A DNA stretch of 64,000 bases. Origin: Antennarius striatus (lineage: Eukaryota > Chordata > Actinopteri > Lophiiformes > Antennariidae). Positions 1,906 to 54,377 of this stretch are shown piece by piece. The notes under the pieces were generated by a model. It was not told the origin of the DNA and searched no databases. It saw only the letters and a list, made by a program, of their open reading frames with translations. The DNA lies in contig NC_090785.1 in the NCBI RefSeq assembly GCF_040054535.1, forward strand, positions 15,174,501-15,238,500, written 5' to 3'. The stretch's first letter is position 1, and each line of letters opens with the position of its first letter. The translations under genes and the position numbers were made by a program.

Positions 1906-1974
1906 GAGTGTGATTTTATGTTTGAACAGCTGTCAAAGAAAACAGGATTTGCGTAAATCTGTGTTCGCAAAGAC

Positions 1975-8568: not shown

Positions 8569-8659
<91 letters not shown>

Positions 8660-18209: not shown

Positions 18210-18530
<321 letters not shown>

Positions 18531-32155: not shown

Positions 32156-32803
32156 GAGTGGATGTCAAATGAAGGGTGTGACAGTCTGACCTGCGACCAG
32201 GGTAGGTTGTGGATGTAAAAGAGGTTTATTGAAGTGTGTGTCTGTAAAAGCTTTCCTCTCCGGAAAGATGTACGTACAGAGTCCCAACACTGCAAAGCCA
32301 CTTTCATAATTGTGTACATTTTCCTTTGCTCTTTAAAACTCCAACATTTTCAGGGACAGACTTATGAGCATTATTGTTGACATTATTGCTAGACCAATGT
32401 TCAGCAGACACAGGTGTGCTCAGGCAATAAGAGTATGAGTCGACAGTTTGTGTAGCAACTAATGAATTATTTTTACATGTATACTGGAATTTTAAAGAGG
32501 AAGAAGGAACTTCACAATAAAAATGTGTATCTCAGTACATTTGGCACATACGCATGAGTCTTCATGCACCTTTTCCAAGCTGCATCAACCAGCATGTGGT
32601 ATCAGGAAGGGAGTAGGTAAGTCTTGAAATTATTAAATGATTCATGTCTTCTGTGGATGGTGGAATTGGTCGTTCTTAAAACTGTTCTTGTGTTAGATAT
32701 GTATCCAGGTTCCCCTAATGCTAATATTTTATGTTCAGATCATGACAACCACAGTATAACAGTTATTGCAAAGATTGATAGATCAACATGTTGCTCAGCA
32801 GGA

Positions 32804-32809
32804 TTTATT
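32804..32809 (-). terminator. gpx3: gpx3 copy A polyadenylation signal
   Basis: The complement of the tttatt at this position is AATAAA, about 280 bases past the copy A stop. The same block recurs downstream of copies B (39092-39097) and C (46172-46177). Confidence 0.75.
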
Positions 32810-32904
32810 TGAATGAATCAACACACAGGCTGTAATGACCGACAGGTCCTGAAGTGGGAAGTTGACGTGATGCTTGGGGTTCCAGGGCAGCCTGAATGCA
32901 CTGA

Positions 32905-32985
32905 AGAACTGTCCTGAACCTCAGACTCAAAGGAGACACCACAGAGTAACTGTTTTCAAGCCTCCTCTTCATTAAACAGGTCATC
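32905..32985 (-). promoter_or_regulatory. gpx3: SECIS element of gpx3 copy A (form 2)
   Basis: SECIS hairpins recruit SBP2 and the selenocysteine elongation factor. On the minus strand the quartet sides are ATGA (32972-32969) and TGAG (32929-32926). Between them is a nine-pair helix (AGAGGAGGC with GTCTCCTTT). An unpaired AAAA-containing apical region follows, then a small extra stem ACAG/CTGT closing a five-base loop. The extra stem makes it a form-2 SECIS. It lies about 116 bases after the stop codon. Confidence 0.88.
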
Positions 32986-33087
32986 TTCATGGATCAGAAA
33001 CTGTTGGCATTATTTTCTACATTGGCACATTAACAATGACGTCTGCAATATTGCAAATTAATCAGATTAATTAAAAAGGTCATTTCT

Positions 33088-36053
33088 TTAGAGCTGGAGG
33101 AGGAATCTGAGGATGTCAGACTGGACCTGAGAGACATTGACAGATGGATGCCACCTCATCACAGCCTTCCCATCTGGCCCCACCAGAAACTTTTCAAAAT
33201 TCCACTTCACGTCAGTGACCTTCAGTGGAGTCCAGAACAGACCAGAGGGGTCTCCCAGATTTACTCCGACTGGAGGACACGAGTTCTGTAGAAATAGGAA
33301 ACAGCTAGATCAGACACAAATGAACAACCCTCACCTTAAAGATGTGTGACTAAAATAAACGTTGATCTGCAGCATGTTTTTGAGGAAACAATTGTCAGTA
33401 ATGATCAATAGTAACTCAGTCTATTTAAACGACACAGCAGTCTTCCTGTGTTAACATGCATTATAAATGGAATCACTTGTTACATACCTTGAGGAATGTA
33501 TAAACCTCCTGCTCATTACCTCCGTTCACGTCACCCTTCTCAAACAGCTGGAAGTTTGGAACATAACCATTTCCTGGTCTAACATACCTGTGATCCAGAA
33601 AGAAGACAGTTTATCAGTGATGTGTCTCTGAACACTTTGTGTCTTGGCAGCTTCCATTAATTCACCACAGGTCTTAATAAAAAAACAGTTGTCTAGATAC
33701 AAGACCACAGAATGAACCTGAGGACTCAGCATGTATGAGCGGCCAGAGACAAGAACTGATTTTGTTGTAACAGGATCCCTCTTCTCATTAAATGAACACG
33801 TTGATTGACTGGACTTACCGGTATCGCAAACATCCAGGCTCTTACATTCCAGAACATTATTATATTTATAGATGTGACTCAAGATCAGGAGATTCTCACA
33901 TGTTCAGATCTTCTGTATGATTACCGAAATAATTTTGGAAACTCTAGAGCTTCAAGTATGAAGCACATCGATCAAAAAAACAATTATTTTCACCCTGACT
34001 GTTTTGATCCATGGATTTCAGGTTCTGACTGGTTTTCTTCATTAATTTTATTCTGTGAGATAAAGCTTCTGAACTGATAATAGTATTAATAGTCACAATA
34101 ATAATTCAATCATTTCTCACTTTAAACCCGGCAGAATTTCATGATTTTGTCCTGGTTCCTGTTTCCCAAACTGGTTGGAGGGGAAGCCGAGAACGACGAG
34201 CCCCAGAGGTTTCAGCTTCTCCTGTAGTGCATTCAATTCTGATAACAGAAAATCACAAGTTGACCATTAAACGTCTTTAAACTGAGAATCTCCAAGACTG
34301 CATCACACAATAATGGCATTCATATGACCGTTTCTTACCCACATACTGAATGGTGAGCCCTCAGAATGTGGCTGTATTGACGAAGAGGACAGTCTGACCT
34401 CTGTAGTCACTGAAGTTCACAGTGTGGCTCCCATCCAGAGTCTTTGCATTGTATTTATAAATGGTGTCACCTGTGGACGGCTGGCACAGCTGAGGGTAAA
34501 GAAACAGTTCAAGCAGGTGACAAACTGTTATTGCAGGGGTACAAAACATGGTAAGTACAACCAATCATTTTAAATTTAAACCAATATGGGATGCATGGTA
34601 CAGGATAATAAAAGCACCATGAGTATTATGAGTATTATGCTGTGCAGCGGTGACAATGTCTGCAATTTCACGGAAATATCGATGTCGTTTTTCAGTTCTG
34701 TTCACAACAGCTGGTGATGTGTCACCTTGTTTCCTATGAGAATGTTCGACCCCTGCAGCATCACACAGCAGCTGTCTTTAAGAGTGCACATTCAACAACT
34801 GTTGTAGCTGAATGGAAAGGAAATCACTTCTCTGTTACACATCCTCACAGGTCAGCTGGTGCAGACCTCAGGAGCCGGATACATATAATAAAAAAATGGT
34901 ATTGATGTCCAACCCTTGACATGAATGAGCCTATTGACTCAGTTCCTGAAAAATCTTTTCATGCAGACTAATTCTATACAGACTCAAAAACTACAATACT
35001 ACGCTATTCTCAATCTAAAGTAGCCTCAGTCAAAACACAGATGACCAAAAAAACAACCTGCTATCAGAACACAAAGACCAAAGATGGAGGCTGGCGAACA
35101 AACCGATCAGCTGAATGGTGAGGAAGTCAGTCCCGTGCACAGCAGCAGCATGAGAAGAAACTAAAACAGAGCATTCAAACAGCATCTTTAAAAGTGATCA
35201 AGAAAAGTGTGTGGAAATCTGTCCAGCATGTAAGGGCAGATGAACGGACGTACAGATGGACTGACAAGTGTAACCCAGTATTTATTTACCTTTGGTGTGA
35301 TCACTCACTGTATTTTCTGCCCCCCCCCCCCCCAAAAAAAAAAATAGGTCAATCAGAATTTCCTTAATCCAATTACTTGGCAAAATATACCTCTGGGTGA
35401 AAAGTTAAAAATTATATCAGAGAAATAATTCCCATGAAATAATATTTGTATTGAACGAGCAGATTAAGTGCAGGTAAATTTCAAAACAATGATAACAAAT
35501 ACATCTATTTGTTCAATCCTCTCTTCCAGAGCAAACATCAGTTTATTTACCAAACGAGGGCTATAACTATTAATCAAACATCAGCCCAAACATGGACTGT
35601 GTTATCATGTTGGATGACATTTTATTATTATTATTAAATTATAGTAATAAAGTAATATTTTCTTATTATTTTATGACTAATATTTTATAATAATAATAAT
35701 TATTATTATTAATAATAATAAATCCTTTTATACAATGTCTCACGATGGATGCATTGTCCAGTGTTCAACTAGTAGTTAAATCACACGTCATGTCACACAG
35801 CTGAGACACGTTGCTGAACGTGTTGCACTGACGGCCTGTGAATTCCCGCTTCATCCCAACACCTGACAGGGAAATTAGAGAACAGAGCGATTTTAAACGC
35901 TCTCAAATTGATTTATTTATCCCGTAACGAACGGGTTGTGTGCCGGTCGACCATTACCTGTGTGAGTCCGTTGGAGCAGGCGGAACCGGGCTGCAGCAGA
36001 CCGAAAAGCAGGAGCGACAGTAGAGGGAACATGTTACCATCCGTCTCCGCCAT
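33088..36053 (-). CDS. gpx3: Glutathione peroxidase 3, copy A (selenoprotein), complete
   Basis: A secreted selenoperoxidase that reduces hydroperoxides with thiols. Exons (transcript order): 36053-35958, 34489-34339, 34238-34121, 33587-33488, 33285-33088. They total 663 nt, 220 residues, with GT-AG junctions and phases matching copies B and C. The N-terminus [20 protein letters not shown] is a likely signal peptide. The in-frame TGA at 34363-34361, in the context NTATF-U-GLTIQYV, is read as selenocysteine. The other catalytic residues are Gln in [11 protein letters not shown] and Trp/Asn in [13 protein letters not shown] form-2 SECIS follows. The C-terminus (FLLQL) is about 12 residues shorter than in B and C, and exon 1 is unlike theirs. 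The gene lies tail-to-tail with tnip1, as GPX3 does in mammals. Residue 1 could instead be Met-8. Confidence 0.95.
34361..34363 (-). other. gpx3: Selenocysteine TGA codon, gpx3 copy A
   Basis: The TGA falls where glutathione peroxidases carry the catalytic Sec, followed by GLT and preceded by Phe (not the Tyr of B and C). Coding similarity continues on both sides and across the next three exons. Confidence 0.95.
35322..35725. repeat. Homopolymer C/A tract and AT-rich trinucleotide block in gpx3 A intron 1
   Basis: A run of C followed by a run of A lies at about 35322-35344. An AT-only (ATT)n/(AAT)n mixture lies at about 35625-35725. The rest of this 1.5-kb intron shows no recognised feature. 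Confidence 0.8.
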
Positions 36054-36172
36054 AGCGACAGCGACCTGCGTCTGTGTGTGACCGCCTCCCCCTCATCAAG
36101 AGCGGCCTGGGTCGAGCAGCGAGCTCCGTGGGGTGAGGTAACGCCCACTGCTGACGTAACAGAACTCACAGT

Positions 36173-36262
36173 AAATATTACAACAGCAATCACAACAACA
36201 ACACCACCAACAACTACAACAACTACTACTACTACTACTATTACTACTCTTACTGTTACTAC
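36173..36262. repeat. (AAC)n/(ACT)n trinucleotide array just upstream of gpx3 copy A
   Basis: Imperfect triplet repeats, first caacaa-type then actact-type, start about 120 bases upstream of the copy A start codon. They may lie inside its proximal promoter. The other copies lack the array. Confidence 0.85.
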
Positions 36263-36462
36263 TACTGTACTATGTCAGGGCTCAGGAGACCAGAACACAA
36301 GCGTGTTTGTTTATTCCAGAAATGACAAAGATGTCAGATTTCAGCAAATCCCAAAGTTCACTGAACTGAACTGAACTGAATGACAAACTCTGCAAAGGGT
36401 TCATTTAATGTCACAGGATTTTACCAAGAGGAAGGTTAATCATCAAAGAAGAGCGTAGAAAC

Positions 36463-36728
36463 CAGGCATGGGCAAACAATGTGCCACGGGCCATGTTAGG
36501 CTTTACAATCGTGCCCACTTATTTTTTTATACTATATAAATACTTTTATGAAATAAACTAAAAATATTTCTTTGCTGTTGGTTAAATGCCAAATCCTTTT
36601 ATACAATGGTGTTTACATAATTTGCAAAAGTAGAAATCAACACTTCATCCACCTGCTCCTCAGCTGGCCCATCTGTTAAATTTTAGAACTCTGTGTAGCC
36701 CACCAGTCATAAAGTTTGCCCACCCCCG
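36463..36728. mobile_element. Short hAT-type MITE (CAGG...GGGCAAAC termini)
   Basis: The left end CAGGCATGGGCAAACAAT and the right end, complement CGGGGGTGGGCAAACTTT, are inverted repeats of the type seen in hAT MITEs. The flanking octamers GTAGAAAC and GTCTAAAC agree at six of eight positions, consistent with an aged 8-bp target duplication. Confidence 0.7.
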
Positions 36729-37023
36729 GTCTAAACGTTGATGAGAACTTTATATTCTTTCTGGAAGGCTCGTTTCGGCTAAATCTTTCCAGAATTACCC
36801 TGGAATCTTTTGACTATCTACTGGGTGGTTTCTGCTATCTGGTCTGAACACTCTGACAATCCAGACCTACATTTTATCACCCAGACCTTGACTGCATAAG
36901 GAATGGGACATTCAGAATTAAACACACAAGACAATGTGCAGACCTGTAAGTTTAAGTGAACTGACTCTATTACACAACTTTAACAGTGAATTAACTTTTA
37001 AAGCCTTGTTAAAATATAGAGTA

Positions 37024-37440
37024 CAGTAGTATCTTGACATACGAGCAACTGGACATACGAGGTTTTTGAGATATTAGCCATTGCCTCTTCCACATTTTTG
37101 TTCGACATATAAGCGAAAATCTGAGGTAACAGTTTTGCTCTGGGACACCACCGCTAGTTGGTGGATGGATACAACATCAGCTGAGACCGCATCTCATTGT
37201 TTCCCATGTGTTGAGTTTTGCATTTCTTTTCATACTTTGTTTATGTAACTTACATATAAATAATAACTCACAGGAAACATGTCTAGTGGTTGATAAAAAT
37301 ATATTTTTTTCATAATTTAGGGGATTTGGGGCTGTTTTACAATGGTGGGACAGATTAAAATAATTTTAGTTAATTTAAATGGTGAAAATTTGTTTGAGTT
37401 AGAAGCACATTCACTTACGAGATCAGTTATGAGCAAGCAA
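37024..37440. mobile_element. Truncated Tigger-like element end
   Basis: It starts at a TA with CAGTAGTATCTTGACATACGA, the usual 'CAGTRGTACCTCGACATACGAG' kind of Tigger terminus. It later shows internal 'cacttacgagatcagttatg'. The matching right terminus is not found, so the end coordinate is approximate. Confidence 0.55.
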
Positions 37441-37686
37441 AGAGAAATGGGTTTCCATTCCATTTCTCAGTTAACTCCACCAATAGTTAACACCAAATAG
37501 CAAAACCTTCAGAGGTCAGCATTCAGCGGTCAAAAAACTTTTAATGCTTCGGGGCAGAAATCTAACCCGGCGAACATTGGTTCCTTCTTATACCTGAGCA
37601 CCAACTATCCCCAGGAGACCCCGTACATCATTTAGCTCCTAAAGGGGGATAACCCGTCAATAATTTAAAAAGCATTATCCATGGTC

Positions 37687-38040
37687 ATTCATTCATTCAT
37701 TCATTCATTCATTCATTCATTCATTCATCTTCTTACCGCTTCATCCGCTGTAGCTGGTCACGATGAGCTGGAGCCTATCCCAGCTAACTGAGGGCGTGAG
37801 GCAGGGATAACTCTCGGCACGAAACCAGTGCACCACATAGACATACGCAGACAACACGCACACACACTCACACCTATGAACACTTTGAGCCAGCCAATTA
37901 ACCTGAAATGCATTTTGGTGGTGGGAGGAAGCCAGAGAATCCGGAGAGAACCCATGCAAACTCCGCACAGAGCGGGACTCGAACCTGGAACCGCCTTGTT
38001 GTGCAGCGACAGCCCTACCCACTGCGCCACCGTGCCTCCC
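37687..38040 (-). mobile_element. tRNA-derived SINE with (GAAT)n tail
   Basis: On the minus strand the head reads GGGAGGCACGGTGGCGCAGT (A-box region), then GGTTCGAGTCC (B box). The body has 'ggagtttgcatgggttctct' and 'cttcctcccaccacc'. It ends in a (GAAT)n tail at 37687-37727. Two open frames across it are coincidental. Similar but damaged copies lie at 45815-46035 and 55085-55395. Confidence 0.85.
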
Positions 38041-39091
38041 TGTTATCCAGCTGAAATTAAACTGAGTATTAAACAAAAGTAAATGTGTTACAGAGTGTAA
38101 TATTGTGTGTACAGAAACCTCCAACCATCTATGAAGGCTCATATCACCAGTCAAAGCAGCCAGAAAATGTTTCAAAGAATCACAAAAGAGGTGACATATG
38201 CATTTAAATCCAGAGCCAAATGTCAGAGGCAAATGTTTCAGATTTCACTGGGGGAACCGATTAAAGACTAACACCATGTAGGAGCACATAGAGAGCTCTG
38301 TTGGCTGTCTGAACATGGAGAGGGATTGTCAGATGTGCTCAGAGACCCTTTTGTAGGCTGTGGAATGAGAGTAGCCAGAAAAGGCTCCTGACAGAGGATA
38401 ATGTGACATTGAAGTATTAGAGATAATCATATATATGAAGACAGCTGCAAAGGTGCAGGTGAGCTGTAAAAGGGACATACAGAGACATTCTTTGTATACG
38501 ATGTAAATTCTATATAAACATACTGATAAAGATGGCATTTTTTTGTGATTTTTTTTGTGGTTGTTCAGCTGAAAACATGAATGACATGGATTTGGATGAA
38601 GACAATTAAAGTGAGGCTGTTTAATTCATTGTCTATTGAACCAGTCTCCACGCAGTTATTCTACCCCTGTGGGAGGTATGGTGTGCACATTTTTCGCCAG
38701 AGTTTTTGGACATCTTATGACAACAGTGACCTTATGGAAAACAAAAGCATTTAGATTTTACTAAATTTGAAGTTTTATGTTTCTGTTCATCTCCAGCATA
38801 GTGTAGATCCTGCTGTGCAGCCATCAATTAATTATTTTGCTCCCCTAGGAGAATGACTGACATTCATTTACTGTATATACTTTACTATATGTACTAAAAA
38901 AAAACCCCCAAAAAACCAAAAACCCATTCCCCTCTGTTTTATTTATTTATTTATTTCGAAAAAATAGCATCCTTTAATTAACTGTAAGTAATTCTTAATG
39001 AATAGGGAAATGTGCATGACCTTATTCTGACCCATGGCGTAACAGATTCTGGTAAAGAAAGGTCTGGACATCAACATGTTGCTCACCAAGA

Positions 39092-39097
39092 TTTATT
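39092..39097 (-). terminator. gpx3: gpx3 copy B polyadenylation signal
   Basis: AATAAA on the minus strand, about 245 bases past the stop, inside a block shared with the 3' ends of copies A and C. Confidence 0.75.
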
Positions 39098-39194
39098 GTT
39101 ATGAAGTAACACACAGGCTGTAATGACCAACAGGTCCTGAAGTGGGAAGTTGACGTGATGCTTTGGGGTTCCGGGGCAGCCTGAATGCACTGAA

Positions 39195-39275
39195 GAACTG
39201 TCCTGAACCCCAGACTCAAAGGAGACACCACAGACTTCCTGTTTTCAAGCCTCCTCTTCATTTAACAGGTCAACT
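39195..39275 (-). promoter_or_regulatory. gpx3: SECIS element of gpx3 copy B (form 2)
   Basis: The quartet sides are ATGA (39261-39258) and TGAG (39218-39215), with the same main helix as copy A. The apical ministem is ACAG/CTGT, here with loop GAAGT. It lies about 80 bases after the stop. The stem is kept while the loop differs from copy A. Confidence 0.88.
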
Positions 39276-39339
39276 TCATGGATCAGAAACTGTTGGCATT
39301 ACATTGTACGTTAGCACGTTATCAGTTACTTCATCAGAT

Positions 39340-41201
39340 CTAAACTGCTGAAAGGGATTCACATTCCTTAGCCTTTAGTTCTGTCTGGTATGCCAGGATA
39401 CCATCTCGGACCTCAGAAATTTCGACATGTGGATGCCACCTCCTCACCGGCTTCCCATCTGGTCCCACCAGGAACTTTTCAAAGTTCCATTTGATATCGT
39501 TTATTTTCACCGGCTCCCAGAATATTCTGCCTGAGGGTTTTCCAAAAGTTTCTCCAACTGGAGGGCATGCGTTCTGCATAATAGAATAAACATCTGTACG
39601 CAAGGCAACAACCTACAAATTTTAGATGTGTGAGTATAAGATTAGCAAACTGTCTTTTGAAATCATTGCCAGTCACATGTTTTTGAGGAAACAATTGTCA
39701 TTAACATTCTCTGAGTTTGTGTACAGTCATTAGTACACAAACTCAGTCTATTTAAACTACACAGCAGTGTTAACATGCATTATAAATGGAATCACTTGTT
39801 ACATACCTTGAGGAACGTGAAAACCTTCTGCTCTTTAGCTCCATTCACGTCACCCTTTTCAAACAGCTGGAAGTTTGGAACAAATCCGTTTCCTGGTCGT
39901 ACATACCTGTGATCGGGAAAGAAGACAGTTTATCAGTGGATGTGTCTGTAAAATTTCCATTAATTCACTCCTGGTTTTAATAAATTCACAGTTGTCTCCA
40001 ATGGATACCAGGCCACAGAATGAGCCTGAGGACATTTTGAATGTATGAGCAGCCGCAGACAAGAACTTGTTTTATTGTAACAGGATCCTTCCCCTGATTA
40101 AATGATCACATGTTGATTGACTGGATTTACCAAACTGCAAAAAGGCATGTTTGAGAAGCTTTTGTTTTCAGTTCAAGAGATCTTTTTTTTCCAGATTTTT
40201 TTACACTCTAGAAGTCCTTTGCAATATCTTGTTTTTCAAGACTGAAGTGCTTTTATTCTTATATTGATACACAGCTTTGGCATTACTGGTTGTTTTTATA
40301 TGTTCAGTTAGTATATAATAATAATAATAATAATAATAATGTAATTATTATTATTATTATTATTCATAGAAAATCCCCTCTTACTTTAGTCCTGGCAGAA
40401 TTTCATGTCTTTGTCCTGGTTCCTGTTTCCCAAACTGGTTGGAGGGGAAACCGAGAACGATGAGTCCCGTCGGTTTCAACTCCTCCTGTAGTGCATTCAA
40501 TTCTGATAACAGAAAAAGAAAAGATGGAAAAGCATGGCTTTTTAAAAAATCTTACAACATAATGATATCTGAAGCCCTTTCTTACCCAGATACTGAATGG
40601 TGAGCCCTCAGTATGTGGCTGTATTGACGAAGAGGACAGTCTGACCTCTGTAGTCACTGAAGTTCACAGTGTGGGTCCCGTTTAGAGTCTTTGCACTGTA
40701 TTTATAAATGGTTTCATTTGTGGATGGCTGGCACATCTGAGGGTAAAGACACAGTTCAAGCAGGTTTGTTTCTCCTTCATACTTTTACAAACAAATAAGG
40801 GAATTCTTCAATTGATCCAATGACTCTGAAACACATGCATCTTCAGGATACTTTTTCCTAGTTAAAGGAGTGAGACCGTGAGCTAATGCTTTGAATTTTT
40901 AGGTCAAAACATACATAAGTGAGGTTCATTATCTATTGTATAAACAGGTCTTGATGTGACGTTATTAAACTTCTGGGAGCATAGTTATATGAACAGTTCA
41001 TTATTGGAGAACATGGTGATAACATCTGATATCAAGTTGATTTATTCCTCTCTAGACCCATGAAGCTACTGAATGGATGTCAAAACATACCTCTGAGAAT
41101 GGAGGTGCATAGCCGCAGTCCGTGCAGGCGGTATTGGGTCGCAGCAGACCGAAGAGTAGTAAAGGTAAAAAGCACCACGGTGCCCCATCCTTCCCCACCA
41201 T
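39340..41201 (-). CDS. gpx3: Glutathione peroxidase 3-like, copy B (selenoprotein), complete
   Basis: Secreted selenoperoxidase, tandem paralogue of copy A. Exons (transcript order): 41201-41091, 40736-40586, 40502-40385, 39906-39807, 39573-39340. They total 714 nt, 237 residues. The start is chosen by a strong Kozak context (GTCACCATGG). An ATG 15 bases upstream is out of frame. The N-terminus [20 protein letters not shown] looks like a signal peptide. Sec is the TGA at 40610-40608 in [24 protein letters not shown] and [15 protein letters not shown] carry the remaining catalytic residues. The C-terminal tail ends ECESLSAV, an extension shared with copy C but missing in A. Its introns match A and C in position and phase. 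Confidence 0.95.
40313..40366. repeat. (AAT)n-(ATT)n inverted array in gpx3 B intron 3
   Basis: About eight AAT units are followed after a few bases by about seven ATT units, so a transcript of either strand can fold into a long AU hairpin. It sits close to the donor of exon 40502-40385. Confidence 0.9.
40608..40610 (-). other. gpx3: Selenocysteine TGA codon, gpx3 copy B
   Basis: In-frame TGA in the context ATY-U-GLT, the standard glutathione-peroxidase active site, with conserved coding sequence on both sides and a downstream SECIS. Confidence 0.95.
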
Positions 41202-43724
41202 GGTGACGGCTCACCATGGGTGTCTGGCTGCTTCTCCCTCAGGGTGAATTTAAAACAGCTTCAACTGGGGGCGGAGGGAAGCACTGCAGAGATGACGCCC
41301 CCTTCTGACATAACAGCATCCACAATGATCGACCAATGAATGAATGAGTGCAACTTGCATTATCTAAAACAGAGTGGATTAGTGATTTCTATATGACATG
41401 CCTTGGTTATGCCTCAATATGTTATCAAAATGTAAATAATTTGACCACTACAACAAAGAAAGTATCTGCAGTAATGTTTATTTCTATTATTATTATGACA
41501 ATTATTTCAGTATGGTGTAACAAAATATTCAAGTAGATTCATCTTTCATTAATCTTTCTAGGTAATCATTCATAGTTCAGGCTTTTTCAATGCTTAAGAT
41601 AACATCTTGATTCCTATGGACAACATTTGAGATGACTGCATTTCAGAAACAAGAAGCAAATGTTGTTTCTTGTTTTAAGAGATGTCAGATTGGTGGAACT
41701 ACCAATAAAAAATAAAAGAGCTGATTATAATATTATTAATGTCTGCTTTCAATCTACAAAAACATTTTTTTAACACAAGAGATGGCTTTTGTTTAAGTGA
41801 CAACCTGATGTAGGCATAAAAAAATGAAATAGCGGACACATTTATTGTACAAATACATATGCCGCCTCTATATTTAAAATTACTTTCTTTAATTTGATCA
41901 ACAAATGCGTATTCATGAGCACCAAACGTGAACTAGAATTTCTAAAAACATCTCTTTCTGGTGTAAAACAATAAAACACCACACAGAGAGTCCACAAGAG
42001 AAACTGTTGGTTGAGAGTTGCTGTTATTTCTACAGGAAAGATGTGAAACTATGACTGAAAGTCAGCGGATATAACTTGTAACAAAGCTAGCTTATACTTT
42101 GTAGTTGTCATAGCAGAAAATGCAGTGAGAGTTGTGCCTTTGTTTTAATTAATTCGACTGTATTTCTAAGGGTTTTTACCATTGAAAGGGATTAAATTGT
42201 AAGGAATTTTTGATCACTTCAAATTTTCATCACACACTGTGATTTAGGCCGATAGTACAAACAGTTCAGTAATAACAGAGACAAATCTAACACACACGGT
42301 CACACACTGAACTGAACTCATATTCATTGTTAACAATCTGTCTGATACAGAGATACAATTCTGGAAATTCGTACTCTACTTTTATATCTACTCCCACAGT
42401 GGCACTTTGTCCTTGTCAGAGAATTTATAAATGGGTTTTCTGCTGAGTTTAACCTAACAGGAGGGTTTTGTTTTCAGTGTTACATATTCTGAAAGTTTGT
42501 ATGATTTATTTTTGATATAATATACTGAAAGGAACAGAAAGACTTTGCTGAGTTTGTTGACCTGATAAAAAAATGCAGCCAAGCTGTTCTCTCCTTTTGA
42601 AAGATTGGGCTACAAAATGTCACAGAGACTGACAAGTTAAAGGTGAGCTTATGGGTTGCCTTAGGAAAATGACCCAAATCACAAATGGACTTTGACATTT
42701 ATGCTACTGCTGCTGGGCTCTGGCATCTGAACCCATCAATGAAATGAAAACATGACAGAAGATATAACATATGCTAAAGTTGACAAAGTGAAATAATAAT
42801 CTTTATAAATATTTAAATACAATACTGCAGATGTTAAATGGTCGAAGTTTTTAAATGCTTGATGAATGTTTCGATTTGGGTGAGGTTGAAGTGTACACAT
42901 GATACTCAGCTATGGTATCAAACTTATAAAAGTCATTTTCTGGAGCTCTTCATTAGGGCTGATACTGAAATTGTTTGCAAAACAAGTGTACTGGCACACA
43001 ATGACACAGACACAGAACAAAACTTCTATTTGCTTCCCAAAATTATAGTTATAAGACTGACGAGTAACTGCCAAACACAGCCTGAATACTATTCTGCATA
43101 TGAAAACCTGAAACTTAAAACTAACAAAGACTCATTTAAATGTCAAGTATACTAAGACTTCAGACCTTGAGTGCAATTTTTTGGATATGTAGAGAGGATG
43201 GGTAATCTAATGTTTTGAAAATCCAAACATTTGTCTTACAAATATCTGTGTCAACTCAGTTTGGGCAAAGTAAGACTATTTGTAAAATAAAACTAGAAAA
43301 AGTGGTAAAATAAGAATAAAAATATTATGGATATAACTAAAAGAGATAATGCTACATGGAGCTGGTAGCTTGGGACAAGTGAAAAGAATGAATGAGTAAA
43401 ATGCTATGAGAAAAATGATGTAGGGCTAGAATGTAGGGCAACTGAGTGAACCATTCACCCTATCATTAAGGGTCAGTCATTACCCAGAACTCATGACCAT
43501 AAGTGAGGGTAGAACTAGATTTACTGAAAAATCAAGAGCTTCACCTTAGAGGTAGGTCTCTCACTTTTTTCAGCAGACTAGTACAACACCTGTATTGTCA
43601 CAGATATACCCAGATCCATCTTCACCATCTCCCACTCTTTGGGAATTTGTTTATTCTGTTGTTTTATTTTTTTGTTCCCACATTTTGTTTGTTTGTTGTC
43701 AATGCAAACCAAGCTCTCATTTCA
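41202..43724. other. gpx3 B upstream region and B-C intergenic sequence, left part
   Basis: The first 90 bases upstream of the copy B ATG (gcttctccctcagggtgaat..., then a G-rich 'ctgggggcggaggg') are shared with the upstream flanks of copies C (48053-48125) and D (53537-53615). This marks a duplicated proximal promoter or leader. Beyond that the sequence is AT-rich, with no recognised gene. A weak match to the copy C flank occurs near 42290. Confidence 0.55.
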
Positions 43725-43732
43725 GTCATGTC

Positions 43733-44722
43733 CTGGGGTGGACAGTAACGGAGTAAATTTACTGAAGTACTGTACTTAAGTACAGATTCTGAGGATTTTT
43801 ACTTTACTCAAATACTAGAATTCTTTCATACCTATTACTCTTACTCGAATACATTTCCGAGGCTAAGATTTTTACTCTTACTCGAGTTAATTTCTGAGAA
43901 GGCTCATTAATACTTTTAGGTTTGCCTGTTGTTGTTTTGTCCCCCCCCCCCAAAAAAAGCAATTGGCCACACGCAGTGTTTGTCAAAGAAGGAAACCTAT
44001 TACAGTACACGTTCTCAACTGGGATTGACGTAAAAGCTGAAATACGTCAGGGGGGGGGGGGAGACAGACAGACTGGTGGGGGGAAACAGACAGTCTGGGG
44101 GAGACAAATATTGTGGTACTGGGATATGTCCTTCCTGTAAACATTGAGTTGTTGAAAGCAGAGATTTAGTTTGTTGTAAAGCAGTGGTTCTCAACCAGTA
44201 GTCCACCAGTGAGTCCTTCAGGGGTTCCAGTTGGTCCCCAGTTAAACGAGTTGGTTGGGCCCGTATGGCTCCATTTGGTCTTGTGTGTGTATGGAAGGGG
44301 GGAATTGTTTAATAAAATGTGAAAATGACATAATTGTCCTCTTTGGGGAAGGCTTGGTACAGTATAACATAATGGTTCTACAGACAAGCACATCAGTTCA
44401 GGTGGTTTCAAAGAGTTTTCTCTGAAACAAGAGATACAAGGTACTACTGTATATATAAAATTGTAAAATGACAGTAATTCAGTCAGGTCCATTCTCATCA
44501 AAGATAAATAAAAATAGGAATTTACTCTTACTATTTTACTTATAGTACATTTAAAAGCATTTACTCTTGAATACTTAAGTACATTTAAAAGCAAGTACTT
44601 TTTTTACCCTTACTCAATTAATGTATTTACTGGGCTACTCTTACTTGTAGCAGAATAAATTTTGACCAGAAGTATTTGTACTCTTACTCAAGTACTGGGG
44701 TCAAGTACTCTGTCCATCTCTG
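43733..44722. mobile_element. hAT element with perfect 8-bp target duplication, between gpx3 B and C
   Basis: The left terminus TGGGGTGGACAGTAAC and the right terminus (complement AGAGATGGACAGAGTAC) are inverted repeats, with arrays of 'tactcaagta/acttaagta' words inside. Identical octamers GTCATGTC flank it at 43725-43732 and 44723-44730. It has no transposase remnant I can read. It contains poly-C and poly-G runs and, at about 44182, a second hAT-like start (CAGTGGTTCTCAACC). Confidence 0.88.
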
Positions 44723-45329
44723 GTCATGTCACACGAACAACTCATTCATTGTTCGCCATCCCTCAAAATCCTTTCTTGTTACTGACAAAGTTTGTTATAC
44801 GTTATGTTTACAAAAACAAACAAAAACAAAAACCCAACAAAAATCTGGGGTAAGTGTCGTTTATTCGTCAGATTGAGAAGATTTGCACTACTTAAATCTG
44901 TGGAGAATGTGTCTCCATCCTCAAAAGCTCTCAGACAAATTCTTTCCAGGTGGTGGTGACAACCAGAACAGTCCTCAAAGTCAAGAGCACAAAACAACTA
45001 CTGCTCTCCTTCCTTGTTCGCCAAACTTAAGTCTCAGCAGACGGATAATGTCTTTAGCAGAAGTATTTATTATTATAATTAGTACTAGCATTTATTATTA
45101 CCAGTATTATTTAAAGAGCAGGTACATTATGCATAATTATGGACAATCAGTACATGTGTCTTGAAGTGAGCACTCTTCCTGGACAGGGTGTATGTAGCGC
45201 CTCACAGTAACTGCACTCTGGACATAACATTCATGCATGCTAGGTCCACTGAGTGCCTATAGCAAAACTTGGTACACACCTTTATGAAGTCATGCCTTGT
45301 CCTCTCTGCCAACATGGATTGTTCTTAAG

Positions 45330-45720
45330 TGGAGTTTTTGTCATTCAGTCAAATGAGGTGAACAACATCACCTGAAACTTCGACACACGGTCAAATTAAT
45401 TGCTTTGAATAGACCGACTGTCACATCACCATCTGAAGAACAAATTCAGTCTCATGGAGAATTCTTCCACACTTAGCAAACTGCTTTGGGCAAATTTAAA
45501 GTTACACAGTGACAACCAGTTAGGTCATCTGCTTGTGAAGAAAAGGCTCAGTCACACTGCAATTATTTCACAGCAAAATAAAAGACACTAACAAAGAAAG
45601 CACAAATATGATCAGCTAAAAGAAACTAAAGTAAAGAAAGACACCTTAGACGAAATAATTGTCAATTGCCATGAGCTGACAAGATTACTAAAAAATATGT
45701 AATCAATGTAACAAAATAAC
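45330..45720. repeat. Duplicated intergenic segment, copy 1
   Basis: Phrases such as 'gactgtcacatca', 'gaagaaaaggct' and 'aacaaagaaa', in the same order, reappear at about 49900-50290. This shows that the tandem duplication that produced the gpx3 copies included several kilobases of flank. Confidence 0.7.
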
Positions 45721-45814
45721 GTTAAGGAAATTATTGTCATGTTATGAATGATGATTTATGAATGATGATTTATGAATTGATAATATAATATAAAATAATA
45801 TCAGCAAGACGGTT

Positions 45815-46035
45815 CCGGGTTTGTGTCCTGCTCTTTGCGGAGTTTGCATGCTCTCCCCATGTCTTCGTGGGTTCTTTCCGGGTTTTCCAGTTTCCTCCCA
45901 CCTCCCAAAACATGCAACGAATGTTGAATTGAGTCCAAACTGCCTGTAGGTGTGAGTGCACGTGTGAGTGGTTGTTTGTTTTTCATGTGTCTCTGCAGTG
46001 CACTGGTGTCGTGCTCGGAGTATACAAGCACGACA
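45815..46035 (+). mobile_element. Damaged tRNA-derived SINE body
   Basis: It shows the 'gcggagtttgcatgctctcc', 'gggttctttccgggttttcc' and 'tttcctcccacctcccaaaa' blocks of the same family as the element at 37687-38040, here on the plus strand. It is truncated at both ends. Confidence 0.7.
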
Positions 46036-46171
46036 CGATTTTTAAAAATTTATTTAGCTTGTCCTCAAAGCAAAACTTTGCCAGGATGTGTGGCTTTGGT
46101 CTTGTTCTGACCCATGGTGTAACAGATTCTGTGCAAGAAAGGTCTGGACATCAACATGTTGCTCAGCAAGA

Positions 46172-46177
46172 TTTATT
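46172..46177 (-). terminator. gpx3: gpx3 copy C polyadenylation signal
   Basis: AATAAA on the minus strand, about 235 bases past the stop, in the 3' block shared by all three intact copies. Confidence 0.75.
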
Positions 46178-46274
46178 TGAATGAATCAACACAGAGGCTG
46201 TAATGACCAACAGGTCCAGAAGGTGGAAGGTGACATGAAACTTTGGGGTTCCAGGGCAGCCTGAATGCACTGAA

Positions 46275-46355
46275 GAACTGTCCTGAACCCCAGACTCAAA
46301 GGAGACACCACAGACTTCCTGTTTTCAAGCCTCCTCTTCATTAAACAGGTCATCT
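46275..46355 (-). promoter_or_regulatory. gpx3: SECIS element of gpx3 copy C (form 2)
   Basis: The quartet sides are ATGA (46341-46338) and TGAG (46298-46295). The helix and apical AAAA region are the same, and the ministem ACAG/CTGT with loop GAAGT is identical to copy B. Confidence 0.88.
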
Positions 46356-46411
46356 TCATGGATCAGAAACTGTTGGCATTACTTTCTACATTATTTGTCA
46401 TTTCATCAGAT

Positions 46412-48052
46412 CTACACTGCTGAAGAAGATTCAGATTCCTTATTTTTTAGTTGGAGCAGATATGCCCGGATGTCAGGCTGGATGGTGGTGACATTAATAG
46501 ATGAATGCCACCTCATCACAGGCTTCCCGTCTGGCCCCACCAGAAACTTTTCAAAGTTCCACTTGATGTCATTGACCTGGAATGGACTCCAGAACAGACG
46601 AGAGGGGTCTCCAAAGTCATGTCCAGCTGGAGGGCATGAGTTCTGTAGAAAGTAGAAAGAAGAAAGAGCTAGATAATAGAGAATGAACACAAGTTAACAA
46701 TACTCACCTTAAAGATGTGTGTGAATAACATTGACTTTAATGTGCAGCATGTTTTTGAGGAAACCATTGTCCGTCACCGAGTTTTTTAACTATCATTATA
46801 GCTGAATCTTTTTAAACTACTCAGCAGTCTTCCTGTGTTAACATGCATTATAAATGGAATCACTTGTTACATACCTTGAGGAACGTATAAAGCTTCTGCT
46901 CATTATCTCCATTCACCTCACTCCTTTCAAACAGCTGGAAGTTTGGAACGTACCCATTTCCTGGTCTAACATGCCTGTGATCCAGAAAGAAGACAGTTTA
47001 TGTGTCTCTGAACACTTAGTGTTTTGGCAGCTTCCATTAATTCACCACAGGTCTTAATAAAACAACAGTTGTCTCCAATGGATACAAGGCTACAGAATGA
47101 ACCCGAGGACTCTCTGCATGTATGAGTGGCCACAGACAAGAAGTGATTTTGTTGTAACAGGATCCCTCTTCTCATTAAATGAACACGTTGATTGACTGGG
47201 TTTAGCAGTAATGCAAATTCCTCCCAACATGAAGGTTCTTTTGTTTCAGAACATTATTATATTTATGGATTTGGCTCAAAATCATGAGATTTTTATGTTA
47301 TCAGATCTTCTACAAGATTAGGGGAACCCCCCCCCCCCGTGATTCAAATATGAAGCACTTAAAGAGAAAAATCGTTTTCAGTTTGTATTGACATGTCGCT
47401 TTAAAATTCCTGATTGTCTTCAGTTTTTTTCAGTCAGTGAGTTTGGCTTCAGGTCTTTCATTGAATGTATTTTCAGAGAATGATTTCTCACTTTAAACCT
47501 GGTAGAATTTCATGGTTTTTTCCTGGTTCCTGTTTCCCAAACTGGTTGGTTGGAAAGGCAAGAACAGTGAGTCCCAGATCTTTCAGCTCATCAAGTAGTG
47601 CATTCAATTCTGAGAAGAAAATGTAAAGTTGATTAGATGGAAAAGAGTGTTCTGCTTATGATACTGCATCCCAAAATAATGATATATGGAGCCGTTTCTT
47701 ACCCACGTACTGATAGTTATACCCTCAGTATGTGGCTGTATTGACGAAGAGGACAGTCTGACCTCTGTAGTCACTGAAGCTCACAGTGCGGCTCCCATCT
47801 AGAGTCGTTGCACTGTAATTGTAAATGGTGTCATCTGTAGAGGGGTGGCACACCTGAGGGTAAAGACACAGTTTACCAGACAAAATATAAACTCTTTATA
47901 TACCCAGACTATAAATATATTGTGTGAATACCAAAAAGTACCTGTGATAATGAAATTCCAAAAGTGTTGTCTCCGCCGGTGGGGCTGAGTTGCAGCAGAC
48001 TGAGAAGCAGTAACGGTAAGAAGGGCCATGGCGGCCCGTCCTTCTCCACCAT
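46412..48052 (-). CDS. gpx3: Glutathione peroxidase 3-like, copy C (selenoprotein), complete
   Basis: Secreted selenoperoxidase, third intact tandem copy. Exons (transcript order): 48052-47942, 47853-47703, 47609-47492, 46974-46875, 46642-46412. They total 711 nt, 236 residues, all GT-AG. The start ATG has a strong Kozak context (GTCACCATGG). The N-terminus [20 protein letters not shown] is signal-like. Sec is the TGA at 47727-47725. The downstream active-site sequence is U-GYNYQYV, not the GLTIQY of A and B. Gln lies in [11 protein letters not shown] and Trp/Asn in [15 protein letters not shown]. Exon 4 begins HVRPGNG (YVRPGNG in A and B). Intron 1 is only 88 bases, against 354 (B) and 1468 (A). 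Confidence 0.95.
47725..47727 (-). other. gpx3: Selenocysteine TGA codon, gpx3 copy C
   Basis: In-frame TGA preceded by NTATY and followed by GYNYQYV. The reading frame continues through three further exons, and a SECIS is present. Confidence 0.94.
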
Positions 48053-48689
48053 GGTGACGGCTCACCACGGCTGTTTGACAGCTTCTCACTCAAGTTGAAT
48101 TTAAACTGCTCTGACTTGGGGAGGAGGGATGCACAGTTGATATATAACACCCTCTACTGACGTAAATGCATAGTTTTCCCTCCTTCAGCAGTATATTTGT
48201 TTTGTCATATTGGAACTAAAGGTATTGTTCAGCTGTATCACTGTTCTCCTCATTTACCCTGAATTTTAAATGCGAGTTTATTAACATGTCATCTTGTGGT
48301 CTTTCATGGACTTAACTGTCATACGGATTTGATGCAAATCTGGTTAATCTCTCCCACTGACGATGTAAAATGCTATATGGGCAAAAAGGGTCTGAGAGCA
48401 CCATTCTAAAACATAAAATTACAAATTAACAATTTTTAAAAAAAAGATAAAAGTATATATGTGTAAAGAACATCAACTCAACACCAACAACAGAGAGTAA
48501 AAGAGAAAACAGTTTTATTCACAAACTCTTAAACAGGCACATTGTATCAGAATCTTTTAATAACTATTTTAGAAATGCAGAAACCTACTGTAAAAGTAAT
48601 TAAATATGAGCAGTATAAACTCCAATGAGTTTTTCATTGCTACATGTTGCCACTCTCTTCAAAATAATTGATTTTTAATAATAATTGAG

Positions 48690-48880
48690 CATCCTCGTGG
48701 GGCGTCCCAATGAGCAACTTGCAAGGAGATGCTGCCTTCCTTAAGGGCCCCTCAGCAACTAGCACCTCTCCACTGCCAGTACACACTCCAAACAGTTTTG
48801 TTCCACATGGGTCTTGAGCTGGCCACCCTCTGGTCCCCAGCCCAGGACCCTATGGACTGAACTAATGCCACCCTGACAAT
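48690..48880 (-). mobile_element. tRNA-derived SINE
   Basis: On the minus strand it reads TGGCATTAGTTCAGTCCATA, then GGTGGCCAGCTCAAGACC (A- and B-box-like). These are followed by a unique body containing 'gtgtgtactggcagtggaga'. It looks complete at the head and degraded at the tail. Confidence 0.65.
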
Positions 48881-49899
48881 ATGGTCAACAAAGTTAAGTT
48901 CAAGAGGTCCAGCATTAACTTGTAGTTAAACTGTGTGGTACTTTCTGTAAGAAATGAACATCACACACGGTTTCACACTGAATACATTCATAAGCCTACA
49001 AACAAAGCTGTAAAGAAGTGTCAGGTCTAGGATTTCTCTAAACCAGGAACCTAAAAGTGACCTAACTTTTGCACAGAGGGGCCAAACACATGTCCAGCAC
49101 ATCTGAACATTTTCCCTGTTGAATAAAAGATCTATACATTTCACCAGTTATTCTTCTATTCTGTTTGCTGTTGGCTCTGTAGCTTTAAGCAAAGACACAC
49201 ATACCTAATATAACAAACTGCAAATTCTGCATTGTTCATGCACTTTGTGTTCTTCAAAAAAACCTGACATAAAAACTCTCAATTTTCATATTTATTGAAT
49301 TTGAAAAATGGGATGCAAAAAAGTCACATTGCTTAAGGCGTGTTTCTAAATGTGTATCCTATCTCAAGTGATGTAAACGCAATATGGGTTTTGTGACATA
49401 TTTCAAGAGTAAAGAAATGAAAGAAGAGAATAGGAAGAAAAGGAAGAAAGGAACAAAATGGTCTGCTCTAGGATATTTAAGACTAATTTCATAAAATACA
49501 GTATAATAGAAAGTTACCTGTCACTAAACCACATTTCTATTTTAGGTAATATTCCGGGGTGAAATTGAAGTCTCTACAGGTCGCACCGGAGGAATAATGA
49601 TACACACAAATAACTAAACACCAGATTGTTAGCGTGATTGTTATAAAACTGTAAAGAAAGTAGCAAATATGCTGAATAATACTTGGCATCTGAAAACTGA
49701 AATTTATGAAGACTAATTCATGCTATATTTTACATTGCAGAGAAGATAGATAGATAGATAGATAGATAGATAAAAGAAAAAACACTAGGTAAACATTAGG
49801 TACTTATATCAAAACACCAGACATATTTAAATGCTCGTTCATCTCTATTTGCATGGAGTTTGTTCTAAAGTGAAGCCAGCTTTGTCACTCAGATGATTC

Positions 49900-50290
49900 T
49901 ACAGCGGTGAGGAACACATCTTGTCTTGGCTCCTCTATCTGACACACAGCTTATTTTGTATTTAAAAGACATTCAATAGCCAGACTGTCACATCAGCGTC
50001 TGAGCAAAAGATATGATGTAATAGAAGGCAATTCATTCACGCATAGCAAACAGCTTCAGGCTAATATAAAGTAAAATACTTGTTGACAGCGAGTTAAGTC
50101 ATCTACTTCTGAAGAAAAGGCTAAGTCACATTATAATAATGGAGAGTAACAAAGAAATAAACAAATACCATATCTGTAAAACAATTAATGTACAGAAAAG
50201 GATATTACAGGAAATAATAATCAATTTGCATGAACTGAAAAGGTAACTAAGACAAAATATCTCATCAGTGTAAAGAAAATAGCCCAACAC
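49900..50290. repeat. Duplicated intergenic segment, copy 2
   Basis: The partner of 45330-45720. Shared ordered words include 'gactgtcacatcagc', 'gaagaaaaggcta' and 'gcatgaactga'. It lies upstream of copy C, just as its partner lies upstream of copy B. Confidence 0.7.
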
Positions 50291-52387
50291 AGTATTACTT
50301 TTGCTTGCATAAGGATAAAAATTGTTAATAAAGAAAACATAAATGACCTCAAAAATGTGAAATTTATTTCAAACAAACTATCAAAAGAAATAGCAGTAAC
50401 TATGGTTTAATTGAAAATCAAAACTGAATTTAATATTTATGGGATGAAGTAGAAACAGAACTAAATTGCAAATTGATCAAGTTCAAGAAATGATTATGTT
50501 TTAATTCATGTGAGTAAAATGTACTGTACTTGTGAAAGTCTATACTGCTTCTATAACTTTTTTATTCATCAGTCCATAGGTTGGATAAGAGTCATATGCT
50601 CTACTGCTTTAGGAACATGTCTATAAGAATAGTGCAATTTAAATCACTGAACTGTTCAGGGCTTCTGGAGAGGAGATCCACACTCATTATAAAACCCACA
50701 GCAGTTGTAAGTAATCAGGTCAGGAGAGTAAAAGTGGTTGCAGAATTTATTACAATCTATCCTCCATTTCACAGAAGATCATGTCGGTGTTTGTAGAACA
50801 CCTGAATACGTTGACTATAAATAAGGGTTGTGTCTGTACAGAACTGTATTGATCTTCTACTAGCATGTCAAAATATTACCTACTAAGTCAGTGTCAGTGG
50901 TAAGTATTTCAGAGCTGTGAAATACAAATTACAGTATTACATATTCTTGCAGAAGCTGTTTTATACATTTATTAAAGCATTTTTTCTCTCTGTTTCTGAA
51001 TAAGCTGCTATTTTGGTTTCTTGTTTTCTCAAGGTTTCGGAAATCGGTCTTCATTTGATTGTTTCACTTTCAATAAAATATATATGAATGAATGATAACA
51101 AATATGTTGACTGCTGTATTTTACTTTGGTGAAACAATAAAGTTTAGTTTTTCCTTCTGTTTCTTTTCCTCTAATTTATTTTCTGAAGCTTTTAATCAAA
51201 ATTTTGAGTTCCGTCCTCAAAAAGTAATGGATTACTTTTTGACAGAAAGACAGAATTAGCTTACAACATATATATATGCCTGAAGTAAAAACTTAAAGGG
51301 TATGAGAAAGAAAGAGAAAGAAAAGAAATCTGATTTGAATGAAACTACTGTACTATTTTTCCCTGCAGCCACAAGTAAAGGCAACAGCAATAAACAACAA
51401 TAAATGCTCCATGTGGAGCTCAATGATTCAATCGCTGGCAAAATTAAAGACTTCATGGCTGAATTTGAAAGACTTCCCATCTTGCATCGGATTAGACATT
51501 TAAAAAAAACTATGATGTATAATATAGCGAGTGATAAATTTAAGAAAAGATGTGGAGTCAATAAACATGAGGGTATCAGAGCTGGAAACCAGTGTGAGTG
51601 AGTAGGCACTAGGGATGGAGACCCATTCTCCACAAAATCCATGTACCGAACACATGACTCTAGGTGTAAGAGTGTCTGTCACACTCATGCCTAACAGTAG
51701 ATCGATGGCCTGCACCTTAAGCTTTAGTGTTATCACCCACTTGTTAAACCATGAAATGTTAAAAAAAAACCTGCCCTAGGGCCTACTAATGTTTTTTTTA
51801 TATTTTATGAGCTGGCTCAAGGACATTAGGAATGTTTAACAAAAAAGTACTGGCCTTCTGCTACAACGTGGTGGTCTCCACCTTAGTAGTCGGGGGACAG
51901 AACCTTTGTTAGCAGTGACCTACAGAGGTACCTGTTTCATCACCTTAGACAGGAAAATGGATGGTTGGGTATTGACTTCATCACACCTATTAATGACTGT
52001 GAAGTGCTTTACAAGCTCATGGCTGCATTGACTTAGGACTTGATAAAACACAGTGATTCAAAACCAGCAGGAGACATAGCGCGTGGAATCATCGTTGGTT
52101 GTGCTCACTTCACACTGGACTTCAAGTAACTTATATTTTACAATATCATTATTTATGTAATTAAATAAAATTGAAAGTACAAAATTAGATTGGACTTAAA
52201 CTTAAATTGGATTGGACTTGGAATTGGATTTAAACTTCCAATTGATGTAAGCAGTTGTATTTATTTTGGTATCCCTTTTTGCCGTAGGCATAGTCACGTA
52301 TACACCGTTAGTATCTGACTTCTTGAAACTTTTCTTTAGCATTCACTGGCTTCTTCTTGTCCCGCTTATTCATGACACTCTGGTCAC

Positions 52388-53536
52388 TGAAGTGTCAGAA
52401 CTCCTGTTTTCAAGCCTCCTCTTTATTTAACAAGTCATCTCATGGATCACCTATTGGCATTATTTTCTACATTGGCACATTATTAACAATGTGATCTGCA
52501 ATATTGCAAATGAATCAGGTTAATTAAAAAGGTCATTTCTTTAGAGCTGGAGGGAGAATCTGAGGATGTCAGACTGGACCTCAGAGACGTTGATACATGA
52601 TTTAATTCCTTGTGAGTATAATGATGACTCATGTGAAAAAGTGCATGTATTAAGCAGTGATTTATGCACATCTGTTAAAGTTTTGCCTACTGATTGCATT
52701 TCCAGAGCATAATTAGTCACTTTAAATCTGGCAGAACTTCGTGATTTTCTCCTGGTTCCTGTCTCCCAAACTGGGTGGAAGGGAAGGCGAGAACGATGAG
52801 CCCCAGAGGTTTCAGCTTCTCCTGTAGTTCAATTCTGATAACAGAAAAGGACAAGTTTGCGTCATTTTCAAGTTTGTGTCAATGTCTTTAAACTGAGAAT
52901 CTTTAAGACTGCATCACACAATCATGATATCCATATGATTGTTTGTCACCCACATGTGGCTGTATTGATGAAGAGGACAGTCTGACCTCTGTTGTCACTG
53001 AAGGTCACAGTGTGGATCCCATCTAGAGTCTTTGCACTGTATTTATAAATGTCTCTTCATACATTTTTTGATGGTGGCAGTCATCCACTCAACTGAGTAC
53101 GTTTTTTTGGAATAACTCCTGTTTATATGTGCAGTTCTACATCGACAAATGATTTAAGGGAATAAAATAAGGTAGGCCTGTCCCAAATAACTCTGCACTT
53201 GATGGTTGTAGCTGATCTGCATGTAACTTAATTTACTATGCCCGAACTGTTAGAGTGGGACTGGGATTAAATGTTTCAAATTAAAATCTAATATTTTATA
53301 TGAATGTTACCTTCGCACAAAGTGATCAAATTAATTACCCCACTTTATTACCTAAACACTTTATTATTAGAGAACATGGTGATAACATTCCTCTCCAGAC
53401 TCATGAAGGTACTGGATGAATGTCAAAATGTAACTCTGTGTATGCAGCTGCAGTTCAAGCAGGTGGTATTGGGTCGCAGCAGACTTAAAAGCAGCAAAGG
53501 TCAGAAGAGCCACGGTGACTCATCCTTCCCAACCAT
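52388..53536 (-). pseudogene. gpx3 copy D pseudogene
   Basis: A degenerate fourth gpx3 copy. Exon 1 (from ATG 53536-53534) matches copy B but has a TGA at codon 12 (53503-53501) inside the signal peptide, and its donor has lost GTATG (now GTTACA). Exon 2 (about 53048-52956) lacks its 5' end. It also lacks a 23-base segment removing the Tyr and Sec codons and GLTIQ. Exon 3 (about 52838-52721) has lost four bases (frameshift). Exon 4 is absent. Exon 5 keeps only its last part, near 52540-52600, without WNFEKF. The 3' flank keeps half a SECIS, with ATGA changed to ATAA at 52426-52423. It cannot encode a peroxidase. The 5' part and intron 1 resemble copy B. Intron 2 and the 3' part resemble copy A. 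Confidence 0.93.

Positions 53537-54239: not shown

Positions 54240-54377
<138 letters not shown>

Follow-up and report, generated by a model that had tools for sequence, protein, structure and literature searches.

In mammals, the glutathione peroxidase gene GPX3 presumably occurs as a single copy between TNIP1 and DCTN4, in a neighbourhood with the order anxa6-tnip1-dctn4, and the human gene has five exons. Here we analysed a cluster of gpx3 genes in the ray-finned fish Antennarius striatus, situated in a stretch of 64,000 nucleotides (nt), called the window below, that covers bases 15174501-15238500 of a 24.8-Mb contig (C10) in an assembly of 548 Mb and 42 contigs. Related expansions have been described: placental GPX5 and GPX6 are presented as tandem duplicates of GPX3, and bony fishes as having an extra GPX3-like gene, GPx3b, derived from the fish genome duplication (PMC3316567). 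The number of fish selenoproteins is given as ranging from 28 to 55 (PMC12822975). A literature search at the level of titles and the beginnings of abstracts turned up no description of tandemly clustered gpx3 genes in a fish. Tandem expansion of gpx3 is a known kind of event, and the part of the present locus that is worth following is its mosaic history.

The cluster consists of three intact genes, copies A, B and C, and one gpx3 pseudogene, D. The four are mosaics and not plain duplicates, D combining a B-like 5' end with an A-like rest. Our preferred reading, to which we assign a probability of roughly 0.78, is that gpx3 underwent an old tandem expansion to four units, of which three were kept and D decayed, that exchange among the units continued, and that expression is likely divided among the genes retained.

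The initial annotation of this DNA, made from the letters alone, had described three complete five-exon genes with identical intron phases, an active-site TGA and an AATAAA in each, together with one broken copy, and on these points our analysis agrees with it. Indeed, A, B and C each comprise five exons separated by GT-AG introns of phases 0, 1, 2 and 0, and exons 2, 3 and 4 measure 151, 118 and 100 nt in every one of them (Table 1). The coding regions (663, 714 and 711 nt in A, B and C) each hold a single in-frame TGA, which lies at the active site and at the same offset of 126 nt from the beginning of exon 2. Following this predicted selenocysteine (Sec) codon, A and B continue with G-L-T, copy C with G-Y-N. 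The active-site residues Sec, Gln, Trp and Asn, the catalytic tetrad of these peroxidases, are all present in A, B and C, and the three proteins match the Pfam family GSHPx (PF00255) with E-values of 4e-40, 4.3e-39 and 1.7e-36, respectively. The best PDB matches of copy A were GPX6, GPX3 and epididymal GPX, with the human GPX3 structure 2r37 at 7.2e-80. A hydrophobic N-terminal stretch (maximum mean hydropathy 2.3-2.6, by a hydropathy measure only) is found in all three proteins, which are 65-73% identical to each other and 52-59% identical to a human GPX3 sequence; both of their termini differ, and so do their N-glycosylation motifs.

A selenocysteine insertion sequence (SECIS) had likewise been claimed for each intact copy, and here the outcome was divided. 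The minimum-free-energy folds of the candidate elements in the 3' untranslated region (UTR) of A, B and C are all shaped like a SECIS, and the core motif of AUGA, AA and UGA is in its place. Some results tell against the call. In narrow scans of the 3' UTRs, the matches of all three copies to Rfam SECIS_1 stayed below the family's cut-off of 35 bits, and a scan of the whole window at curated cut-offs gave no match. In the scan of copy C, two small nucleolar RNA families scored better E-values (0.17 and 0.32) than SECIS_1, and the folding energies of the elements were no better than those of shuffled sequences (z of -0.73 for A, -0.58 for B and -0.38 for C). As these energies are ordinary, the call rests on shape, core motif and position. 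We take A, B and C to carry a predicted SECIS-shaped element each, for which the Rfam scores alone would be weak.

Copy D retains the initial ATG, at 53536, which is followed by a TGA at codon 12. A deletion in its exon 2 took out the Sec codon together with some adjoining bases, and 4 nt are missing from exon 3. In an alignment of the copies and a self-comparison of positions 30000-57000, exon 4 had no counterpart, and of exon 5 just the end was detected. The SECIS remnant of D has AUAA in place of AUGA and lacks the 3' half, and an Rfam scan returned no SECIS match for D up to an E-value of 10.

The window has the gene order anxa6, tnip1, copies A, B, C and D, dctn4, as established by Pfam, PDB and tblastn matches; the four gpx3 copies lie on the minus strand, the three neighbours on the plus strand. 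With these neighbours, which are those of GPX3 in mammals, the cluster is the gpx3 home locus. In a tree of 13 rows, A, B and C formed one branch (support 95/94) beside mammalian GPX3/5/6 (98/97), and the joint branch of the two (99/98) stood apart from GPX1/2 and GPX4; the branching order among A, B and C was not settled. The initial annotation had seen in the cluster an expanded repertoire of secreted selenoproteins, which would raise the demand for selenium or split expression by tissue. Neighbours and clade uphold the expansion at the home locus; the picture of simple copies gives way to one of mosaics.

A protein search of the assembly with a single query, copy A, in which the best 26 candidates were scored, yielded 24 exon matches, 14 in the cluster and 10 in four other genes: two in each of two genes on contig C5, two in one gene on C17 and four in one gene on C21. 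Among these candidates, the cluster is the sole locus of GPX3/5/6 type, and none of the four other genes fell inside the group of cluster and GPX3/5/6 in the tree. The types GPX4, GPX7 and GPX8 were not among the best 26 candidates, and no further search was aimed at them. The search also looked for a separate canonical gpx3 elsewhere; the 10 non-cluster exon matches all belong to the four other gpx genes. The C5 pair and the C17 gene are GPX1/2-like, with C17 closest to GPX2. The C5 pair fits a ray-finned fish, as bony fishes are described as having GPx1 and GPx1b (PMC3316567). The C21 gene (L030, about 1832-3261, minus strand), placed by the tree outside the group and beside it, is a divergent Sec peroxidase with five coding exons read by eye. 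Its nearest ATG, likewise found by eye, gives MANKSIYDF, with no evident signal peptide; exons further upstream were not sought. The gene is possibly the fish GPx3b, or else gpx9.

Likeness among the copies is distributed unevenly. Synonymous divergence (dS by NG86, here and below for A-B, A-C and B-C in this order) was lowest in exon 2, the Sec exon, at 0.09, 0.20 and 0.21; it amounted to 0.31, 0.39 and 0.49 in exon 3, to 0.52, 0.30 and 0.36 in exon 4 and to 1.0, 0.50 and 0.77 in exon 5. Synonymous counts in exon 2 differed from those in exon 5 with P 1.3e-5 for A-B and 0.006 for B-C. Counting all bases, identity was 92, 87 and 85% in exon 2, 89, 84 and 81% in exon 3 and 87, 88 and 85% in exon 4; it was 60-68% in exon 1, 69-79% in exon 5 and 53-83% in most intron comparisons. 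Over the 3' part of intron 3, likeness is 88-94% for A-C, as against 78-85% for A-B and B-C. In the 3' UTR, identity changes from 58-77% just before AATGCCAACAG to 87-100% from AATGCCAACAG to AATAAA, beyond the SECIS. The C-terminus and the start of the UTR come in two types, one common to A and D, the other to B and C.

A permutation test on variable sites, in which P 0.0002 is the floor of 5000 shuffles, detected an A-C fragment at intron 3/exon 4, with P 0.0002 over all sites and over non-coding sites alike; the A-C signal persisted in introns 3 and 4 together (P 0.006) and in intron 3 alone (P 0.024). For A-B, the test gave P 0.004 over all sites (intron 2/exon 3) and 0.018 over non-coding sites (UTR), and for B-C, in intron 2, 0.001 and 0.0008. 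The four-copy alignment leaves exon 1 of A unaligned, and no use was made of its 5' rows for this copy. In its promoter and exon 1, D has 17 states in common with B alone and 7 with A alone; from exon 2 to the start of the UTR, the figures are 3 with B alone and 43 with A alone. Shared states that cluster between sharp borders, in DNA free of coding constraint, are found in the A-C introns and in the chimaera D, and exchange between copies is the best explanation of both.

Several observations count against our preferred reading. The permutation test did not pick exon 2 for any pair, and within introns 3 and 4 A-C alone reached significance (A-B, P 0.42; B-C, P 0.23). The synonymous contrast between exons 2 and 5 was non-significant for A-C (P 0.13), and exons 3 and 4 nearly match exon 2 in total bases, so that exon 2 is distinct at synonymous sites only. 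The contrast between the 5' part of D and its remainder (Fisher P 3.3e-8) is to be read with the reservation that the segments were picked after the alignment had been seen and that adjacent sites are not independent. That exon 2 was not singled out and that exons 3 and 4 come close to it in total bases weakens our preferred reading and strengthens an explanation by constraint: the copies would be old tandem duplicates that simply diverged, with exon 2 and the SECIS-bearing UTR held alike by strong selection on RNA and protein and no exchange involved. Exon 2 and this UTR are the segments with the clearest job in Sec insertion, and the SECIS stem-loop is 93-98% alike among the copies; yet some 106 nt beyond it are also 87-93% alike, and the A-C tract in the 3' part of intron 3 and a pseudogene that resembles B at one end and A at the other likewise count against this explanation. 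Divergence without any exchange thus seems to us unlikely, though it is the strongest of the alternatives; the likeness of exon 2 and of the UTR may be due in part, or even wholly, to selection.

A further alternative holds that copy A, which is next to tnip1 and least changed, is the real gpx3 and that B and C are on their way to loss, as D has already decayed. At positions that do not vary among four sequences from mammals (GPX1, 3, 5 and 6), private changes number six in C, two in B and one in A, and dN/dS among the copies is 0.37-0.47 (NG86) or 0.41-0.66 (YN00). These values allow relaxation in one copy, and pairwise tests cannot assign constraint to any one copy, which speaks against a firm claim that all three are maintained. 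However, reading frames, splice sites, Sec codons and SECIS folds are intact in A, B and C despite a dS of 0.41-0.48 (NG86; 0.36-0.43 by YN00). The proportions of nonsynonymous and synonymous differences (pN/pS) in the three copy pairs were 0.157/0.356, 0.161/0.316 and 0.194/0.352, pN being about half of pS (Fisher P 5.5e-7, 6.5e-5 and 4.5e-5), and the last P is that of B-C, so that pN is below pS in this pair too. In neutral simulations (substitutions only, 20,000 runs per gene), an open frame with the TGA was kept in 8.6% (A), 4.2% (B) and 5.3% (C) of runs at 0.1 substitutions per site and in 0.8, 0.3 and 0.4% at 0.2 per site. We consider it improbable, more so than divergence by constraint, that A is the only lasting gene. 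Among the outcomes that would overturn it, the initial annotation had named haplotype or assembly duplication, by which a single gene would appear several times, and tandem arrays are indeed generally prone to assembly errors. Haplotypes generally differ far less than these copies do in protein and at synonymous sites, and the contig is long; in the self-comparison, there were few matches outside the genes and the intergenic gaps were mostly without mutual matches; and a DNA search of the assembly with a 401-base query from the end of copy A gave four matches among four candidates, all in the cluster. As far as sequence alone can decide, assembly duplication is rejected, and we regard its chance as negligible.

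Beyond the changes private to one copy, A, B and C have six further changes in common at these positions, including Cys to Ser or Thr in the motif FPCNQF. At this site (34185-34168 of the window in A), the four mammalian sequences have Cys, copies A, B and D have Ser and copy C has Thr. Since the Cys is altered in all four copies, the change probably preceded the duplications.

According to our preferred reading, old tandem duplications at the gpx3 locus of a ray-finned fish would have produced four units, of which A, B and C were retained as genes for predicted secreted selenocysteine glutathione peroxidases and D decayed. In each mRNA, the UGA would be decoded as Sec with the aid of the SECIS in the same transcript, and the proteins would act outside the cell as enzymes that reduce peroxides at the Sec-Gln-Trp-Asn site. 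Later on, unequal crossing over or gene conversion may have moved DNA between the copies, generating the B/A chimaera D and the A-C tract in intron 3. Exon 2 and the SECIS-bearing 3' UTR could have been kept alike by exchange, selection or both, as the copies diverged in promoter, predicted signal peptide and C-terminus. Three genes would most likely have been retained because their expression is divided, A having its own 5' end and B and C a common type, and copy C may have an altered reaction. A bolder version, which we offer as a conjecture that probably overreaches, envisages evolution in two layers: exchange together with selection would keep the Sec-insertion kit of UGA exon and SECIS UTR alike in all copies, whereas the promoter, the signal peptide and the C-terminus would be free to diversify. 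A single recoding module would then be shared by three enzymes that are deployed differently, and C (UGYN, six changes at conserved sites) would be heading towards a new function.

Over proximal promoter and exon 1, identity was 73% for B-C, 74% for B-D and 65% for C-D, and only 48-52% for A against each of the others. A box is common to A, B and C, reading TTACGTCAG in A and C and TTATGTCAG in B. A non-coding element of 310 bp in the gap between D and C has a partner in the gap between C and B, and these two are the only matches in the assembly. The former is found some 2 kb upstream of the start codon of C and also about 2 kb after D, the latter some 4.3 kb upstream of the start codon of B and roughly 0.5 kb past the AATAAA of C. 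The pair would be a candidate duplicated regulatory element that could serve either neighbour. A repeat of about 200 bp, 67-69% alike, occurs at 37817-38001, 45802-46014 and 55101-55298, in three gaps around the copies and once inverted; it is possible that it helps unequal crossing over.

Table 1. Features of the gpx3 cluster and its surroundings (window positions).
Feature	Position	Strand	Details
gpx3 copy A	33088..36053	-	exons 36053-35958, 34489-34339, 34238-34121, 33587-33488, 33285-33088; 220 aa
TGA (putative Sec codon) of copy A	34361..34363	-	codon 75
SECIS (predicted) of copy A	32918..32981	-	Rfam SECIS_1 25.6 bits, E 0.013; fold
AATAAA of copy A	32804..32809	-	
gpx3 copy B	39340..41201	-	exons 41201-41091, 40736-40586, 40502-40385, 39906-39807, 39573-39340; 237 aa
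TGA (putative Sec codon) of copy B	40608..40610	-	codon 80
SECIS (predicted) of copy B	39206..39271	-	Rfam SECIS_1 18.3 bits, E 0.75; fold
AATAAA of copy B	39092..39097	-	
gpx3 copy C	46412..48052	-	exons 48052-47942, 47853-47703, 47609-47492, 46974-46875, 46642-46412; 236 aa
TGA (putative Sec codon) of copy C	47725..47727	-	codon 80
SECIS (predicted) of copy C	46286..46350	-	Rfam SECIS_1 19.1 bits, E 0.43; fold
AATAAA of copy C	46172..46177	-	
gpx3 pseudogene D	52396 (about)..53536	-	B-like exon 1; exons 2, 3 damaged; end of exon 5; half SECIS
Non-coding element, D-C gap	49972..50281		310 bp, 69% like 45405-45718
Partner element, C-B gap	45405..45718		69% like 49972-50281
Annexin A6 exons	3935..13042	+	Pfam Annexin; open reading frames scanned 3935-4339 and 12605-13042
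tnip1 exons	21584..28570	+	next gene beyond copy A; tblastn, 8 matches, E 0.002 to 9e-19
dctn4 exon	57379..57699	+	next gene beyond copy D; Pfam Dynactin_p62 1.1e-9

Of the two annexin A6 open reading frames, the first has annexin VI as its best PDB match (4e-35), and the second reaches 23.7 bits with Pfam Annexin, under the 25-bit cut-off. The tblastn query for tnip1 was a human TNIP1 sequence; none of three open reading frames of this region that were scanned with Pfam was identified. The dctn4 exon matches dynactin subunit 4 with 2.9e-33. Long tetranucleotide microsatellites occupy 18200-18600 and 54268-54383, the first of which reads as long artificial open reading frames.

Compared with vertebrate GPX3, the cluster has the same position next to tnip1, a Sec active site, an N-terminal hydrophobic stretch, a predicted SECIS-shaped element and five exons; it differs in having three intact copies and a pseudogene, and FPSNQF or FPTNQF in place of FPCNQF. 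The fish GPx3b resembles the cluster as a further GPX3-like Sec gene in fish, but its candidate in this assembly, by our assignment the divergent C21 gene, lies outside the cluster. Reportedly, events of the same kind, selenoprotein expansions in ray-finned fishes, are the subject of a 2025 study by Tico and Mariotti (cited in PMC12822975), to judge by its title. With three Sec copies beside one that lacks the Sec codon and half of the SECIS, nature offers a test of what in the RNA has to be kept, of whether exchange protects such parts, and of whether extra secreted GPX3 genes split tissues or shift substrate. Placental GPX5 and GPX6 present the same course, tandem expansion of GPX3 followed by divergence; since the fish copies form their own clade beside the mammalian one, however, the two expansions are separate events. 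The cluster thus parallels, in a fish, the expansion that gave mammals GPX3/5/6, but here Sec has been retained in every intact copy.

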